DNA from: Paenibacillus aceti
GTDB lineage: Bacteria > Bacillota > Bacilli > Paenibacillales > Paenibacillaceae
Assembly: GCF_003614185.1 (NCBI RefSeq)
Contig: NZ_KZ987724.1
Span: forward strand, 1,108,159 to 1,172,158
DNA: 64,000 nt
Direction: 5' to 3'
In this document: positions 46,418 through 58,228 of the stretch, piece by piece
How positions within the stretch are numbered: position 1 is the first letter of the stretch
Layout of the letters: each line of letters starts with the position of its first letter
Notes under the pieces: model-generated
Database searches by the model: none
Seen by the model: only the letters and a program-made list of their open reading frames with translations
Told to the model about the DNA's origin: nothing
Position numbers and translations under genes: made by a program

Positions 46418-46483
46418 GTGGGCCAAAGCCACAATCCCAAACTCAGTGTGAACCTCCTCTAGCCCCCGCAAGGAGATCCGGCG

Positions 46484-46781
46484 GAACGAGCCAGGACTTC
46501 CACTGACATGCGGTCAAAAATGCCCGTTAGAGCATGAAAACAACAACTACGCTTTTCTAACGGACACTTTTGACCCTTAGAAGCATAAAATGCAATTTCT
46601 CGCGACAAATCCCCTTGTAATGGACATTAATGTCTGTTACAAGGGCGGGATGCCCCAGAATCAACGCTAACGGACAATGATGTCCGTTAGCGTTAATCCG
46701 GCCAGAACAGGGAGATGTTCACATTTTTGAACACGCAAAAGGGGCGTTTCCAAGTCGGAAGCTCGACTTTTGAGACAGCCC
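46484..46781 (-). repeat. ~300-bp hairpin-rich repeat, family B (left copy, inverted)
   Basis: Nearly identical to the reverse complement of 55134-55432. It contains four imperfect palindromes built on TAACGGACA/TGTCCGTTA and ends in a hairpin including GACTTTTGAGACAGCCCC. It has no coding capacity. It lies upstream of the kdp leader, facing the right copy downstream of the kdp genes. Confidence 0.85.
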
Positions 46782-47140
46782 CTTAAGCTTGCGCGACGGA
46801 GAGTAACTTATTTACTGCTGCTACCTGCCTGATTACCTCGCAACTACCTAACTATTGTGCAAAGAGTTCCCTCACCCCCACCGAACTACTACTGAAGACG
46901 CGGGCGAAAACTGCAAAAATGCAGGTATTCTTCCCACAAGCCACCTGTTCTGAGTGAATTACTGCCTATTTGCAGGCTTTCTAGTGTATGTGTACGGCGT
47001 CCCTCTCATATTGCCAAGCCAGAATGATCAAAAGCCGAGCGAAAAAGAGATATATCGTGAATTAGCGAGATAGTGATGAATGTAAGCGATATATTTTCGA
47101 GTTGCATTTATTTAAGTCATTTTTTGGCAGGGAAGCTGAC
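46782..47140. other. Intergenic region upstream of the kdp promoter
   Basis: About 360 bp without a convincing gene. It holds short partial repeats (GCAAAAATGCAGG and TTTGCAGGC) and AT-rich sequence before the promoter at 47141. No further function is seen. Confidence 0.5.
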
Positions 47141-47169
47141 TTTACAGCTTATCACAGCAGCGTTATGAT
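47141..47169 (+). promoter_or_regulatory. SigA-type promoter of the kdp leader
   Basis: TTTACA (47141-47146), 17-bp spacer, TATGAT (47164-47169). The transcript would start near 47176 and enter the first riboswitch about 25 nt later. Confidence 0.6.
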
Positions 47170-47201
47170 TCAATCCAGAATATATCAAATTGAACCGATT
47201 T

Positions 47202-47445
47202 CTGATCGCTTAATCTCCGGATCACTCCGGAGAACGGGGGAACCAACCGGGCATGCCGTCATCTGATGATCATCGCGGCCTGCTCATTATCTGAATTGCC
47301 CAAGACGGTGTGAGAGCCATCGAACGGCAATTCGGATCGGGGTGAATCTTGAAGGGAGACCATGGACTCCCTTCAGGTAGGGCGACTCTCACCGCCCGAA
47401 TCCGTCAGCTAACCTCGTCAGCGTGGATATGGGAGAGGAAGGGTG
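47202..47445 (+). ncRNA. c-di-AMP (ydaO/yuaA) riboswitch, first copy
   Basis: All conserved blocks of the ydaO-yuaA aptamer are present in order: GATCGCTTAATC, CGGGGGAACCAA, GGGGTGAATCTT, GGTAGGGCGACT, CCGAATCCGTCAGCTAACCT, CGTCAGCG and GGGAGAGGAAGGG. The RNA binds c-di-AMP and, with the terminator just downstream, turns expression off when c-di-AMP (and hence K+) is high. Its position ahead of kdp fits the known regulon. Confidence 0.95.
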
Positions 47446-47467
47446 ACTGCGCGCCGCAATCGATTGG

Positions 47468-47501
47468 GCCACAGAGGACCGTTAGCCTCTGTGGCTTTTT
47501 A
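47468..47501 (+). terminator. Terminator of riboswitch 1
   Basis: GCCACAGAGG-ACCGTTAG-CCTCTGTGGC followed by TTTTTAT. Expression platform of the first c-di-AMP riboswitch. Confidence 0.88.
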
Positions 47502-47539
47502 TGCGTAAATTTGAAAAACAACTGAAAAAAATCCATAAA

Positions 47540-47745
47540 AACGAATCGCTGAATGCCGTCCTATGTGGCGGCAGCGGGGGAACCAACGAATGACGAAGCC
47601 AGCTTGTGCTCGGCCCGACCGAGCATACACACAGACGAGCTTCATGGGGTGAATCCTTGGAAGAATGATACTTCCCAAGGTAGGGCGACTTCCACGCCCG
47701 AATCCGACAGCTAACCTCGCAAGCGTTCAGGAAGAAGCAACCACC
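47540..47745 (+). ncRNA. c-di-AMP (ydaO/yuaA) riboswitch, second copy
   Basis: A second complete aptamer in the same leader: CGAATCGCTGAATGCC, GCGGGGGAACCAAC, ATGGGGTGAATCC, AAGGTAGGGCGACT, CCCGAATCCGACAGCTAACC and TCGCAAGCG. The variable stems differ from copy 1 (for example GTGCTCGGCCCGACCGAGCA here), so it is not a recent perfect duplication. Followed by its own terminator at 47785. Confidence 0.93.
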
Positions 47746-47784
47746 AAGAGCCAGTATTGTGGTCTAGGACTGACCATACTATGG

Positions 47785-47826
47785 AGCCGTGGGGAAGGTT
47801 ACTATCTTTCCTGCGGCTTCTTTTGT
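47785..47826 (+). terminator. Terminator of riboswitch 2
   Basis: AGCCGTGGGGAAGG pairs with CTTTCCTGCGGCT, then TCTTTTGT. It ends 35 bp before the first kdp-operon gene. Confidence 0.8.
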
Positions 47827-47860
47827 GTTGTCTGCTTCATATCCAAGGAGGCGTAATCAA

Positions 47861-48274
47861 ATGAAGGAAGGATATATTCTGGTGGCTGCGCCAAATTCGG
47901 TGGGCCTGAAGTTCATTCTGCTCTTAATCGCGAGGAAATACAATTTCATCGTCCTTGTCAATAACAAGAGGGAGGAGAGCCTTCTCCGTAAAATTGGCGT
48001 CCAGCATGTGCTGCGGATGAAGACGGGTGATGAAGAGAGCTGGATTGCTCCGCCTTTTCCGGTGGGCCGCTGTTATATTTTTGAACTAAGTCTGACACTG
48101 ACCTGCCGTTATTTGCAGATTTGCCGTCGCTGGAGCGCTGACCCGATCTTCATCATTACTCCTAACCGGAGTCCGCGCATGATCTACAAAGGGTTGGGTG
48201 CCAGCTATGTCATACATTCGGTAACTGGTGAGGTTGGATTTCTGCTTGGTGCAGGCCCAGAGCTTGAGCTCTGA
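47861..48274 (+). CDS. Unrecognised Kdp-associated 138-residue protein
   Basis: First gene behind the two riboswitches. ATG 47861 has AAGGAGG 12 bp upstream; an in-frame ATG at 47789 lies inside the terminator and is unlikely. No family was recognised. The alternating pattern of hydrophobic strands and helices (GYILVAAPNSVGLKFILLLI, FIVLVNNKREESLLRKIGVQ, FIITPNRSPRMIYKGLGASY, VIHSVTGEVGFLLG) suggests a small Rossmann-like alpha/beta fold. No membrane segment is sure. It lies 21 bp before kdpA, so it shares the operon and its c-di-AMP control. It may modulate the K+ pump or its synthesis (inference). Confidence 0.7.
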   Translation: MKEGYILVAAPNSVGLKFILLLIARKYNFIVLVNNKREESLLRKIGVQHVLRMKTGDEESWIAPPFPVGRCYIFELSLTLTCRYLQICRRWSADPIFIITPNRSPRMIYKGLGASYVIHSVTGEVGFLLGAGPELEL

Positions 48275-48304
48275 AGATCGTATAAGGATGATGGGGTGAG
48301 TTAT

Positions 48305-49984
48305 ATGGATTATTTAGAAATGCTAGTCGTGATCGGCGTGATTCTATTACTGGTGAAGCCGGTCGGAACTTATATATATCATGTGTTCTCGAATGTGCCG
48401 AATCGCAGTGATCGAATTTTTGGCGGGATGGAAAATCTCATATTCAAGCTAGCTGGCTACAGACAGCGTGAAGGGATGGACTGGAAGAAGTATATGGTCA
48501 GTCTCTTGGCCTCGAATACGGTGCTGATGACGATCTGCTTCATACTATTAAGCTTGCAGCAGTGGCTGCCTTGGAATCCGGATCGCATAGGGGGAATGGA
48601 GCCGAGCTTGGCATTCAATACGGTAATCAGCTTCATGACCAACACGAATCTGCAGCATTATAGTGGTGAGACGGGGCTAAGCTACCTCTCGCAAATGATG
48701 GTTATTACGATGATGATGTTCACCTCGGCTGCGACGGGGCTATGCATCGCGATTGCCTTTATCCGTGGGATCACGGGGACGGGCAAGCTACTGGGGAATT
48801 TCTTCGTGGACTTTGTCAAGGCAATCGTCCGCATCCTGCTGCCCGCAGCTCTGATCGTTACCTTGCTGCTGGTTGCGCTGCAGGTTCCACAGACGCTGGA
48901 GCCAGCCGCCGCTATTCACACCTTGGAAGGATCGGTACAGCGGATTGCGCTCGGTCCTGTTGCCTCGCTGGAATCGATCAAGCATCTGGGAACGAATGGG
49001 GGCGGATTCTTCGGCGCCAATTCATCCCATCCGTTCGAGAATCCGAGCGGATTGACGAATGCCATCGAGATTTGGTCGATGTGGGTGATCAGCGCTTCGC
49101 TGCCTTATACATTCGGCTTGTTCGCACGGAATAAGAAGCAGGGCTGGGTTATTTTTACGGCGATGTTCATTCTGTTTGTCGCTTTTCTGTCTCTGGTCTA
49201 TTTCAGTGAGCAAGCGGGGAATCCGCTGATCCATACCCTTGGCGTCGATGCGTCACAAGGAAATATGGAGGGCAAAGAGGTACGCTTCGGGGTTGCCGGC
49301 TCGGCGTTATTCACGGCAGTGACAACCGCTGCGACGACGGGCAGTGTTAACAATATGCATGATACGCTCACACCGCTGGGCGGCTTGGCCGCTCTGGTGC
49401 AGATGATGCTGAATGTAGTGTTCGGCGGCAAGGGCGTCGGTCTTATGAACATGATGATGTACGCCATACTGGGGGTGTTTATTTGCGGCTTGATGGTCGG
49501 CAGGACACCGGAATTTCTCGGCAAAAAAATCGAAGCCAAGGAGATGAAGCTGATCGCCATCGCGATCCTGATTCATCCGTTCATCGTGCTCGTACCTACC
49601 GCAATTAGCGCCATGACCGGACTTGGCTATGGGGCTGTGACAAATCCAGGCTATCATGGGTTAACCCAAATGCTGTATGAATATGCCTCTTCGGCGGCCA
49701 ATAACGGATCGGGCTTCGAGGGGCTGGCGGATAATACGCCTTACTGGAATATCATGACCGGGTTCGTGATGCTGCTGGGCCGGTATGTCTCTATGATAGC
49801 CTTGCTCGGGGTAGCCGGTTCCTTGATGGGCAAGGAGCCAGTTGCTGAGTCGATCGGCACACTGCGAACAGATAATAAGCTATTTACCGGAATTTTGATC
49901 GGAACGGTCTTACTGATCGGGGCATTAACGTTCCTGCCGGTCATTGCAGCCGGGCCTGTCGCCGAATTTCTAACTTTAAAATAA
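48305..49984 (+). CDS. kdpA: K+-transporting ATPase subunit KdpA
   Basis: Potassium-selective channel-like subunit of the KdpFABC pump, about 559 residues, ten hydrophobic segments. Selectivity-loop regions are visible: [30 protein letters not shown] and [11 protein letters not shown], then [18 protein letters not shown] and [12 protein letters not shown]. The start is either ATG 48305 (GGGGTGAG upstream) or GTG 48296. No kdpF-like small frame was seen between this gene and its upstream neighbour. Followed by kdpB after about 20 bp. Confidence 0.95.
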
Positions 49985-50006
49985 TGAACAAAGAGGTGTG
50001 CCAAAT

Positions 50007-52037
50007 ATGAGCACTCAGCGTAAATCGATACTAAGCGGAAGAATGGTGCAACGGGCCATTCTGGACAGCTTCAGGAAGCTGAATCCTGTCATGATGATCA
50101 AGAATCCGGTGATGTTCGTTGTAGAACTCGGCGCGATGCTCGTCCTGCTGCAGATGCTGCTGCCAGGGATACTTGGGAGGAGCAGTCATACGGGATTCAA
50201 TATTGCCGTTTTCGTGATTTTGCTAATCACGATCTTATTCGCGAATTTCGCCGAGGCTCTGGCCGAAGGAAGAGGGAAGGCTCAGGCGGACCATCTGAAG
50301 AAGACGAAGCAGCAGGTCATGGCTAATAAGCGGGTAGGCGGCGGCTTGCGTAGCGTTCCTTCTACGGAACTCCGTAAGGAGGATATCGTCGTTGTCTCCC
50401 AAGGTGAAATGATTCCCGGGGATGGTGAAATCATCGAAGGCTTGGCCTCGGTGGATGAATCGGCGATCACGGGGGAATCCGCTCCTGTAATAAAAGAAGC
50501 TGGCGGGGATTTTTGCTCGGTAACAGGGGGGACGCTGGTCGTCAGCGATAGCATCGTCGTTCGTATTACGAACGATCCGGGGGAATCCTTCATCGACCGG
50601 ATGATCTCATTGGTCAAAGGCGCGAAGCGGCAGAGGACGCCGAATGAAATTGCGCTGGGCACTCTGCTTGCCGTGTTAACGGTTATCTTCTTGATCGTCG
50701 TCTTCACATTGAAGCCGATCGCTGACTATTTAAATATTGAGCTGGAGACGGCGGTGCTTATCTCCCTTCTCGTCTGCCTGATTCCGACGACGATTGGCGG
50801 ACTGCTGTCGGCGATCGGGATCGCTGGCATGGACCGGGTTACCCAATACAATGTGCTGGCGATGTCGGGCAAAGCGGTCGAAGCGGCCGGGGATGTCAAT
50901 ACGATGATTCTCGATAAGACAGGAACTATAACGTACGGCAACCGGATGGCGGCTGAACTTCTGCCTGTCGGAGCTGGGACAGAGGCTGAGTTGGCCAATT
51001 GGGCCGCGATCTCTTCGCAATTTGATGAGACGCCGGAAGGGCGCTCGGTGCTCGCATTATTGCGGGAGCGGGGCCTAATCTATGATGAACTGTTAGCCCG
51101 TTCAGGAGATAGTATCGAATTCAAGGCGGAGACGCGGATGAGCGGCGTTGATCTGCCGGATGGCCGCAGGGTGCGTAAAGGAGCGGTCGATGCGATCCGT
51201 CGCTGGGTTGCGGAACAGAGCGGGCAGATTCCGGATGATCTGGAGGCTGTGACCCATCGAGTGGCGGTTGCGGGCGGAACCCCGCTGGCGGTCGCTGTTG
51301 ATGCAGTAATCTATGGAGTTATCTATTTAAAAGATACGGTTAAACCGGGGATGAAGGAGCGGTTCGAGCAATTACGAAAAATGGGCATCCGCACGATTAT
51401 GTGTACCGGCGATAATCCGCTGACAGCGGCGACCATCGCTCAGGAAGCGGGGGTCGATGATTATATTGCCGAATGCAAGCCTGAGGACAAAATCGATGTG
51501 ATCCGCCGGGAACAGGCCGCTGGGAAATTGGTGGCGATGACCGGAGATGGCACCAATGATGCTCCGGCATTAGCTCAAGCGGATGTGGGGCTGGCCATGA
51601 ACAGTGGAACGGTATCCGCGAAGGAGGCGGCCAATATGGTCGATCTCGATTCGGACCCTTCCAAGCTGATCGAGGTCGTAGGCATCGGCAAGCAGCTGCT
51701 TATGACCCGCGGGGCGCTGACTACGTTCAGTATCGCTAATGATATTGCTAAATATTTTGCCATTCTCCCGGCGATGTTCATGCTGGCGATCCCGCAGATG
51801 AGTGTGCTCAATGTGATGAAGCTCGGCTCTCCGCTCTCGGCGGTTCTCTCGGCCTTAATCTTCAATGCGGTGATTATTCCGCTGTTGATTCCGATTGCCA
51901 TGCGCGGGGTGAAGTACCGGCCGATGAGCTCGCAGCGTCTGCTTAGCAGAAATTTACTGATTTACGGCTTGGGCGGGGTTGTGGCTCCCTTTATCGGTAT
52001 TAAATTGATTGATCTGTTCGTGCATTTATGGATCTAA
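50007..52037 (+). CDS. kdpB: K+-transporting P-type ATPase subunit KdpB
   Basis: Catalytic P-type ATPase subunit, 676 residues. ATG 50007 has AAGAGGTG 8 bp upstream; GTG 49998 is the alternative. Actuator motif [11 protein letters not shown], phosphorylation motif [13 protein letters not shown] with D303, nucleotide-domain [10 protein letters not shown], hinge CTGDNPLTA and [18 protein letters not shown]. KdpB-type membrane segments ([40 protein letters not shown]) match. All catalytic residues appear intact. Confidence 0.96.
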
Positions 52038-52067: not shown

Positions 52068-52700
52068 ATGGATGTTAAATATACACATCAATCATTATCA
52101 TCATATACAGGCGCGGCATTATCGGCATTATGGGTTGGTCTGCGTTTTAGTCTTATTCTGATCGTCCTGTGCGGTATGATCTATCCGTTAGTAAGTACCG
52201 GACTGGCACAATTATTATTCCCTTGGCAGGCTGGGGGGAGCTTGATCAAGAATAGCTCGGGAACTGTAGTCGGTTCGGAGCTGATCGGTCAATCCTTTCA
52301 GGACCCGAAATTATTCCAGGGCCGAGTATCCAGCATCGAATATGACGGAGCAGGGTCAGGTTCTATGAACTATGCGCCTTCCAACCCGCAGCTTATGCTT
52401 CGTATGCAGGCATCGCTGGAGAAGTGGGAGATGAATAACCCGGAAGTGGCACTAAATCAGTTGCCTATCGACCTCATTAGCAATTCAGGCTCGGGGCTGG
52501 ACCCGCATATAACGCCGCAAGCCGCTGAAGTACAGATTCCCCGCATCAGCAGCTTGACAGGAATTTCGGTTCAGAAATTGAACTCATTAATAGACGATGC
52601 GACTACCGGACGGGACCTCGGCCTCTTCGGCGAGCCTAGAGTCAATGTATTGAAGCTGAATCTGGCGCTGCAGGAGCTAATAGCGGTAACGAAGCAATGA
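52068..52700 (+). CDS. kdpC: K+-transporting ATPase subunit KdpC
   Basis: 210-residue single-span subunit that stabilises the complex. One N-terminal membrane segment (FSLILIVLCGMIYPLVSTGL), then an extracytoplasmic domain with SELIGQSFQDPKLFQGRVSS, SNPQLMLRM, LISNSGSGLDPHITPQAAEV and the conserved end LFGEPRVNVLKLNLAL. GGAAAGGAAG precedes ATG 52068. Slightly longer than the E. coli form. Confidence 0.95.
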   Translation: MDVKYTHQSLSSYTGAALSALWVGLRFSLILIVLCGMIYPLVSTGLAQLLFPWQAGGSLIKNSSGTVVGSELIGQSFQDPKLFQGRVSSIEYDGAGSGSMNYAPSNPQLMLRMQASLEKWEMNNPEVALNQLPIDLISNSGSGLDPHITPQAAEVQIPRISSLTGISVQKLNSLIDDATTGRDLGLFGEPRVNVLKLNLALQELIAVTKQ

Positions 52701-58120: not shown

Positions 58121-58145
58121 TTGGTAGTAAATTGAGTGAAACGAA

Positions 58146-58228
58146 TAGGCGATGGAGTTCGCCATAACCGCCATGAAGGCTAATGACTCCTACCAGGAAT
58201 GGGTATCCTGGTAGGAGTCTGTTTTTTT
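58146..58228 (+). ncRNA. Fluoride riboswitch (crcB motif) with terminator platform
   Basis: TAGGCGATGGAGTTCGCCAT, an AACCGCC stem and GGCTAATGACTCCTAC carry the conserved fluoride-aptamer pattern (GGCGAUGGNGUUCGCC ... GCUAAUGACNCCUAC). GACTCCTACCAGGA (58185-58198) can instead pair with TCCTGGTAGGAGTC (58206-58219) before TGTTTTTTT, an intrinsic terminator. Fluoride binding holds the ACTCC segment in the pseudoknot and lets transcription proceed to the exporter gene. Confidence 0.93.

Follow-up and report, generated by a model that had tools for sequence, protein, structure and literature searches.

Two unlike c-di-AMP riboswitches, probably acting in series, in the leader of a kdp operon of Paenibacillus aceti

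The question raised by this locus is what two c-di-AMP riboswitches, placed one after the other ahead of genes for a K+ pump, would do that one would not, and whether the two are the same device at all. The locus lies in a window of 64,000 nucleotides, the whole stretch of DNA that was analysed, where the first-pass annotation had described two complete riboswitches of this class in series. Comparison of the whole window with Rfam 15 (cmscan) revealed two RF00379 matches in the leader, both on the + strand, both full length and both above the gathering score of 38 (Table 1), which bears out that description. The upstream match is named A1 and the downstream one A2, and their ligand would be c-di-AMP, as judged from family membership. 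Each is followed by its own predicted terminator hairpin (T1 3' of A1, T2 3' of A2), as had also been claimed, and the predicted organisation is that of the tandem class, with two complete aptamers, each with its terminator hairpin, ahead of one gene set. The same search returned a fluoride riboswitch (RF01734, 63.5 bits) at 58139-58199 of the window.

Table 1. Features of the leader, the genes that follow it and the second kdp operon of the genome (window coordinates unless a contig is given).
Feature	Position	Strand	Evidence or remark
Promoter-like TTTACA-17-TATGAT	47141..47169	+	sigma-70-like match
Leader	~47177-47860	+	start inferred from promoter match
c-di-AMP aptamer A1 (upstream, loop-complement subtype)	47197..47440	+	RF00379, 79.8 bits, E 6.4e-17, 1-134/134
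A1 P3 apical-loop heptamer GUGAGAG, complement of own L5	47310..47316	+	sequence; same heptamer in 46/47 upstream aptamers
A1 L5 loop heptamer CUCUCAC	47386..47392	+	sequence
A1 3' tail GGGAGAG, which could also pair with A1 L5	47431..47437	+	sequence
Intrinsic terminator T1 (predicted), 12 pairs + U run	47466..47500	+	hairpin 47466-47497; similar hairpin in relatives
c-di-AMP aptamer A2 (downstream, tail-pseudoknot subtype)	47537..47739	+	RF00379, 91.1 bits, E 4.5e-20, 1-134/134
A2 L5 CUUCC	47689..47693	+	sequence
A2 3' tail GGAAG, complement of A2 L5	47730..47734	+	sequence
Intrinsic terminator T2 (predicted), 17 pairs then TTTTGTG	47783..47826	+	hairpin 47783-47820
orfX, 137 aa, divergent TrkA_N (RCK-N) like	47861..48274	+	first gene 3' of leader
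kdpA	48305..49984	+	PF03814 1.3e-233, TIGR00680
kdpB	49998..52037	+	TIGR01497 1055.6 bits
kdpC	52068..52700	+	PF02669 4.7e-68
Doubled KdpD-like non-kinase protein, 767 aa	52741..55044	+	PF02702 in two stretches; NF038185 two stretches
Second kdp operon (L071)	G000:C1 ~32-39 kb; locus G000:C1:30379-44406	-	read as locus L071

Family models identified kdpA, kdpB and kdpC downstream on the same strand, with no KdpDE adjoining, and the leader thus stands ahead of a kdp operon as proposed, except that its first gene is orfX and not kdpA. Among the matches listed, the closest named KdpA comes from Paenibacillus sp. GM2 (87%). TrkA_N (RCK-N) domains gate K+ uptake of the KtrA/TrkA type. The orfX product itself had no Pfam or NCBIfam match; 12 of 42 aligned homologues match PF02254 (best 6.4e-6), and the best PDB match of the orfX profile was KtrA (5but, E 0.0049). 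An orfX homologue is present in 69 of the 99 kdp operons compared below, including some that are linked to KdpDE. The 767-aa protein after kdpC carries the NCBIfam label "KdpD-like non-kinase potassium sensor" (NF038185), and matches to it of more than 500 aa occur in 86 of the 99 related operons. The set orfX-kdpABC-kdpD' is presumed, from its sequence, to form one transcript.

The distribution of such leaders was examined in 99 distinct kdp operons, made up of 24 from the genus and 80 named loci minus five proven duplicates; the named loci were the top-scoring matches to a single KdpA profile and so form a non-random sample. In the genus, 23 of 41 genomes carry KdpB at E 1e-80 or better, and their 24 kdp operons (window included) have two sense aptamers in eight cases, one in seven and none in nine according to Rfam. 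Over all 99, mostly a Paenibacillaceae set, the corrected tally was 48 operons with at least two sense aptamers (47 doublets and one triple), 34 with a single one and 17 with none. An aptamer regex agreed with Rfam at 39 of 41 loci checked; at the other two, L150 and L169, it failed to detect the single aptamer, and the tally on the KdpA tree still scores both loci as "none". The counts are regex-only for 28 named tandem loci and for 29 further named loci where at most one aptamer was seen, and a few of the 29 may hide a second aptamer. Tandem operons occur in Paenibacillus, Cohnella and Brevibacillus. Three further tandem records bear the label Bacillus, and in the KdpA tree two of these group among Paenibacillus. 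The triple belongs to Paenibacillus radicibacter (L123, 5422-6668), where three c-di-AMP aptamers precede kdpA and orfX lies between the first and the second. In addition, 24 of the 99 operons have, by regex, a further c-di-AMP aptamer core that lies upstream of kdpA and points the other way (among them L080, L081, L098-L101 and L110-L113), confirmed by Rfam at L080, L081, L124, L134 and L153; c-di-AMP may therefore control a divergent gene as well.

The earlier reading also assumed one promoter and transcriptional control at both aptamers. The promoter-like site in Table 1 is the sole sigma-70-like match on the + strand in 46440-48400, so that no such match falls between A1 and A2. Shuffled sequence would give 2.3 promoter-like sites, however, and the scan gave 2, which is not above chance; one promoter for the leader is plausible on this sequence. 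The predicted fold of T1 (47460-47512) has -21.4 kcal/mol and a z of -3.66, which weakens to only -1.27 when more 5' flank is included (47429-47512). Among the 47 doublets, a terminator-like hairpin was found between A1 and A2 in 40 (0/47 in one mononucleotide shuffle per spacer) and within 300 nt 3' of A2 in 28 (1/47 shuffled), leaving seven A1 and 19 A2 without one under the criteria used. Since the hairpin after A2 is found in 28 of 47, a transcriptional second switch is less certain in the other doublets than in the window. Three tests for an antiterminator, pairing the aptamer 3' strand or the linker with the terminator 5' arm, gave complementarity no better than that of shuffled arms. 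Candidates seen by eye, namely AAGCUUGUGAUCG, shared by many A1 linkers and facing CGACCACAGGGCUU of T1, and in the window GGGUGACUGCGCGCC facing GGCCACAGAGGACC, are not claimed. From what is described for this class of riboswitch, we infer that A1 and A2 would be OFF switches acting by termination at T1 and T2.

Comparison of the two aptamers within doublets revealed that they differ in a constant way. The P3 insert contains the heptamer GUGAGAG in 46 of 47 A1, with 0.36 of 47 expected from shuffled P3, and in none of 47 A2. The sole A1 exception (L168) has a P3 of 11 nt, and in the triple, which was excluded from the doublet counts, the first two aptamers bear the heptamer and the third is without it. 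The window A1 falls within this proposed loop-complement subtype, defined by a 7-nt complement of the aptamer's own L5 in the P3 insert. When 46 A1 and eight single aptamers were folded, 53 of the 54 predicted structures placed the heptamer in the apical loop of a hairpin. The closing stem, compared over 22 distinct rows, has 78 of 88 cells paired, with several pair types, whereas shuffles gave a mean of 63.5 cells and reached 78 in 0 of 1000. A U immediately precedes the heptamer in 45 of 46, and the 3' side of the P3 arm measures 15-24 nt in all 54; mean identity in the remainder of the arm is 54%.

The L5 side differs in parallel. Its sequence is CUCUCAC in 45 of 46 motif-bearing A1 (in the 46th, L119, L5 was left unparsed by the script) compared with 20 of 47 A2 (Fisher 1.4e-9, a value that ignores kinship), and the 8-nt form of the L5 loop occurs in 45 of 47 A1 and 0 of 47 A2. 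As the loci are related, p-values across them overstate the evidence. Both strands of the putative P3-L5 pairing are nearly invariant, and covariation across it is consequently almost absent: a single G-U variant, GUGGGAG, was seen, in the single aptamer of L077, the P3 loop being present in 9 of 32 single aptamers, one of them with that variant. The pattern GTGAGAG-N4-34-GGGGTGAAT had ten matches in the 41 genus genomes, all ten inside kdp-leader aptamers, and these genomes hold 261 RF00379 matches in all. Across the order, 126 of 393 genomes match the pattern. Among 30 of the order loci (L186-L215), 29 have an aptamer core and the L5 CTCTCAC (L200 is without them), and of these 29 a kdpA or orfX match accompanies 28 and a further aptamer core lies downstream in 26; this set overlaps the named loci in part and is not independent of them (the leader letters of L198 equal those of L123). 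Judged from their sequences, A1 and A2 are different subtypes and not two copies of one device.

Both aptamers also carry complementary strands in L5 and the 3' tail, predicted to pair as CUCUCA/UGGGAG in A1 and CUUCC/GGAAG in A2, which we take to be the pseudoknot of the c-di-AMP riboswitch family. An exact complement of the aptamer's own L5 pentamer was found within 130 nt in 41 of 47 A1 (46 with G-U pairs allowed; 6.5 expected from shuffles) and in 46 of 47 A2 (3.7 expected), and no tail was found within that distance for A1 of L124. An apparent loss of the A1 tail in about a third of doublets, obtained with a 40-nt window, was ruled out, as the tail lies further downstream; the count of four changes of tail presence on the tree was dropped with it. 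The tail lies at least 30 nt beyond the core in 16 A1, and every time reads GAGAGGATGAT or GAGAGAGGATGAT. At L121, L128, L130, L133, L135, L141, L160, L161, L167 and L175, extra sequence between the A1 core and its tail, by eye a hairpin, displaces a conserved GGAGAGAGGAUGAU block downstream. In most other A2 the pair is CUCUC/GAGAG, so that the window A2 has changed on both sides. Because this divergence preserves the pairing, and because two aptamers are retained in many relatives, both window aptamers look selected, in line with the earlier view that they have diverged and are both kept.

The P3 loop and the tail overlap on L5 of A1 and therefore could not both pair with it fully, and it is from this overlap that we derive an exchange model. 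The reading we consider probable is that two non-equivalent c-di-AMP OFF riboswitches stand in series in the 5' leader of orfX-kdpABC-kdpD'. When c-di-AMP is high (K+ replete), it would bind A1 and favour T1, and transcripts that escape T1 would meet A2 and T2; readthrough would approximate the product of the two escapes, which would give a tighter shut-off of kdp, within a narrower range, than one switch. In A1, a 7-bp pairing of the P3 apical loop (U-GUGAGAG) with L5 (A-CUCUCAC) would compete with the pseudoknot between L5 and the 3' tail, while A2 would rely on the tail pairing alone. As a guess, the P3-L5 contact may hold L5 until the ligand-bound aptamer passes it to the tail. We give about an even chance to the stronger proposal that A1 is an architecture dedicated to kdp, with a 7-bp loop-loop kiss of L5 and the 8-nt apical loop of an extended P3 arm, both loops being 8 nt long, that exchanges with the tail as a three-strand switch, and that with the tail-only A2, always in second place, it forms a two-stage device of unlike parts and no mere duplication.

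A first alternative is that one aptamer does all the switching, its partner being either a duplicate in decay or no more than a structural spacer. A single switch does suffice in Bacillus thuringiensis, according to the part of PMC6488665 drawn on here, and the second kdp operon of this genome (L071), like other kdp operons, carries one aptamer. Against this, A1 and A2 both keep the Rfam core, the tail complement of L5 is kept in relatives in both positions, at least two aptamers occur in nearly half of the operons compared (48/99), and the L5-tail pair of the window A2 has changed on both sides; we regard a lone working switch as highly improbable. A graded response, in which A1 and A2 answer different c-di-AMP ranges or times and the P3 loop tunes the affinity or folding rate of A1, is a real but lesser possibility: it is favoured by the unlike subtypes in a fixed order (46/47 doublets), for which identical duplicates would have no need, although both aptamers match the same core model.

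The near invariance of the A1 loop, with almost no covariation with L5, would also suit a site for a protein or another RNA, conserved for reasons other than L5. This is unlikely in view of L5 positions 6-7, which can be paired by the P3 loop only and are fixed in A1 but variable in A2, and of the bias of both CUCUCAC and the 8-nt L5 loop towards A1. Two unlike switches in series remain the preferred reading.

The first-pass annotation had stated that no kdpDE pair is present, which is true beside the window operon. It is too strong for the whole genome, since the second kdp operon adjoins a KdpE-like regulator and a DUF4118 kinase, and at the window operon it needs the addition that a KdpD-like protein, doubled and non-kinase, is encoded there. 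The genome has ten RF00379 matches and two kdpB genes; a genome-wide PF02702 search gave four matches, two in each of two frames, both encoding doubled proteins, and returned no full KdpD kinase. Two neighbouring genes near 4.378 Mb of G000:C1 (L009 and L010), by eye NlpC/P60 peptidases, each have their own c-di-AMP aptamer. L071 has one sense aptamer and another in the opposite direction (Rfam), and adjoins a divergent pair of a DUF4118-GAF-HisKA-HATPase kinase, without a KdpD domain, and a response regulator 46-48% identical to KdpE of a relative. Together with the window it offers a natural comparison of a single aptamer with a doublet in one genome.

Among the 99 operons, adjacent KdpDE-type pairs were scored by tblastn at more than 40% identity to one KdpE in the fetched flanks (~4-7 kb upstream of kdpA). 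No such pair was found at a tandem operon (0/48), against 26 of the remaining 51 (11 KdpDE, 15 with a divergent KdpE-like regulator). Phylogeny-aware independent pairs gave a median p of 0.25 for this association, a weak test on which no causal claim is made. Four operons (L089, L090, L103 and L142) lack an aptamer as well as such a pair. The part of PMC6488665 drawn on here describes the c-di-AMP riboswitch and a working KdpDE as mutually exclusive at kdp. Control of kdp mainly by the leader RNA, as the earlier reading proposed, is plausible from the sequence.

Much of this arrangement has precedents. The portion of PMC9481103 drawn on here reports 77 doublets of tandem c-di-AMP riboswitches, termed "pseudo-cooperative", with a steeper response predicted; as in the window leader, each doublet consists of two complete aptamers in tandem, and in most of them an intrinsic terminator separates the two. 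The steeper response of two OFF switches is thus a reading already printed for the class. Section 27 of that source names no genes and no subtype difference, and the window locus may be among the 77. Tandem TPP riboswitches, mentioned there too, likewise place two complete switches with a common ligand one after the other, though ligand and class are different. For kdp, the extract of PMC6488665 describes a c-di-AMP OFF riboswitch with a terminator ahead of kdpFABC in B. thuringiensis BMB171, which resembles the window in having no working KdpDE and a truncated KdpD N-terminal protein downstream; one aptamer is described there, whereas the window has two, orfX before kdpA and a doubled KdpD-like protein. 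Both the tandem c-di-AMP pair and the c-di-AMP riboswitch on kdp are therefore known already, as far as these parts of PMC9481103 and PMC6488665 go.

The crystallised ydaO-type aptamer (PDB 4QLM/4QLN) shares the core sequence with the window aptamers. The part of PMC5393176 that prints its sequence mentions the pseudoknot and leaves the strands unnamed; L5 and the 3' tail are complementary there too, by our own strand assignment. That sequence has almost no P3 arm, perhaps trimmed for crystals, whereas the P3 apical loop of A1 is a second complement of L5. A search made mostly at abstract level gave no sign of a P3-L5 contact in the literature on ydaO/c-di-AMP riboswitch kissing or loop-loop contacts, nor of a doublet at kdp in that on c-di-AMP riboswitches at kdp or in Paenibacillus. 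What is added here, at the level of predicted structure, is that the two are unlike subtypes and that the A1 one, with its extra L5-matching loop, recurs at kdp in many relatives.

If this reading is true, many Paenibacillaceae would control the Kdp K+ pump, at operons without KdpDE, by a pair of dissimilar c-di-AMP switches whose order is fixed, and one of the pair would use a competing loop-loop contact. For the question of why two switches are kept, close relatives provide a natural set: some kdp operons have tandem aptamers, others a lone A1-type or a lone plain aptamer, and others a link to KdpDE, while one genome has a doublet at one operon and a single aptamer at the other.
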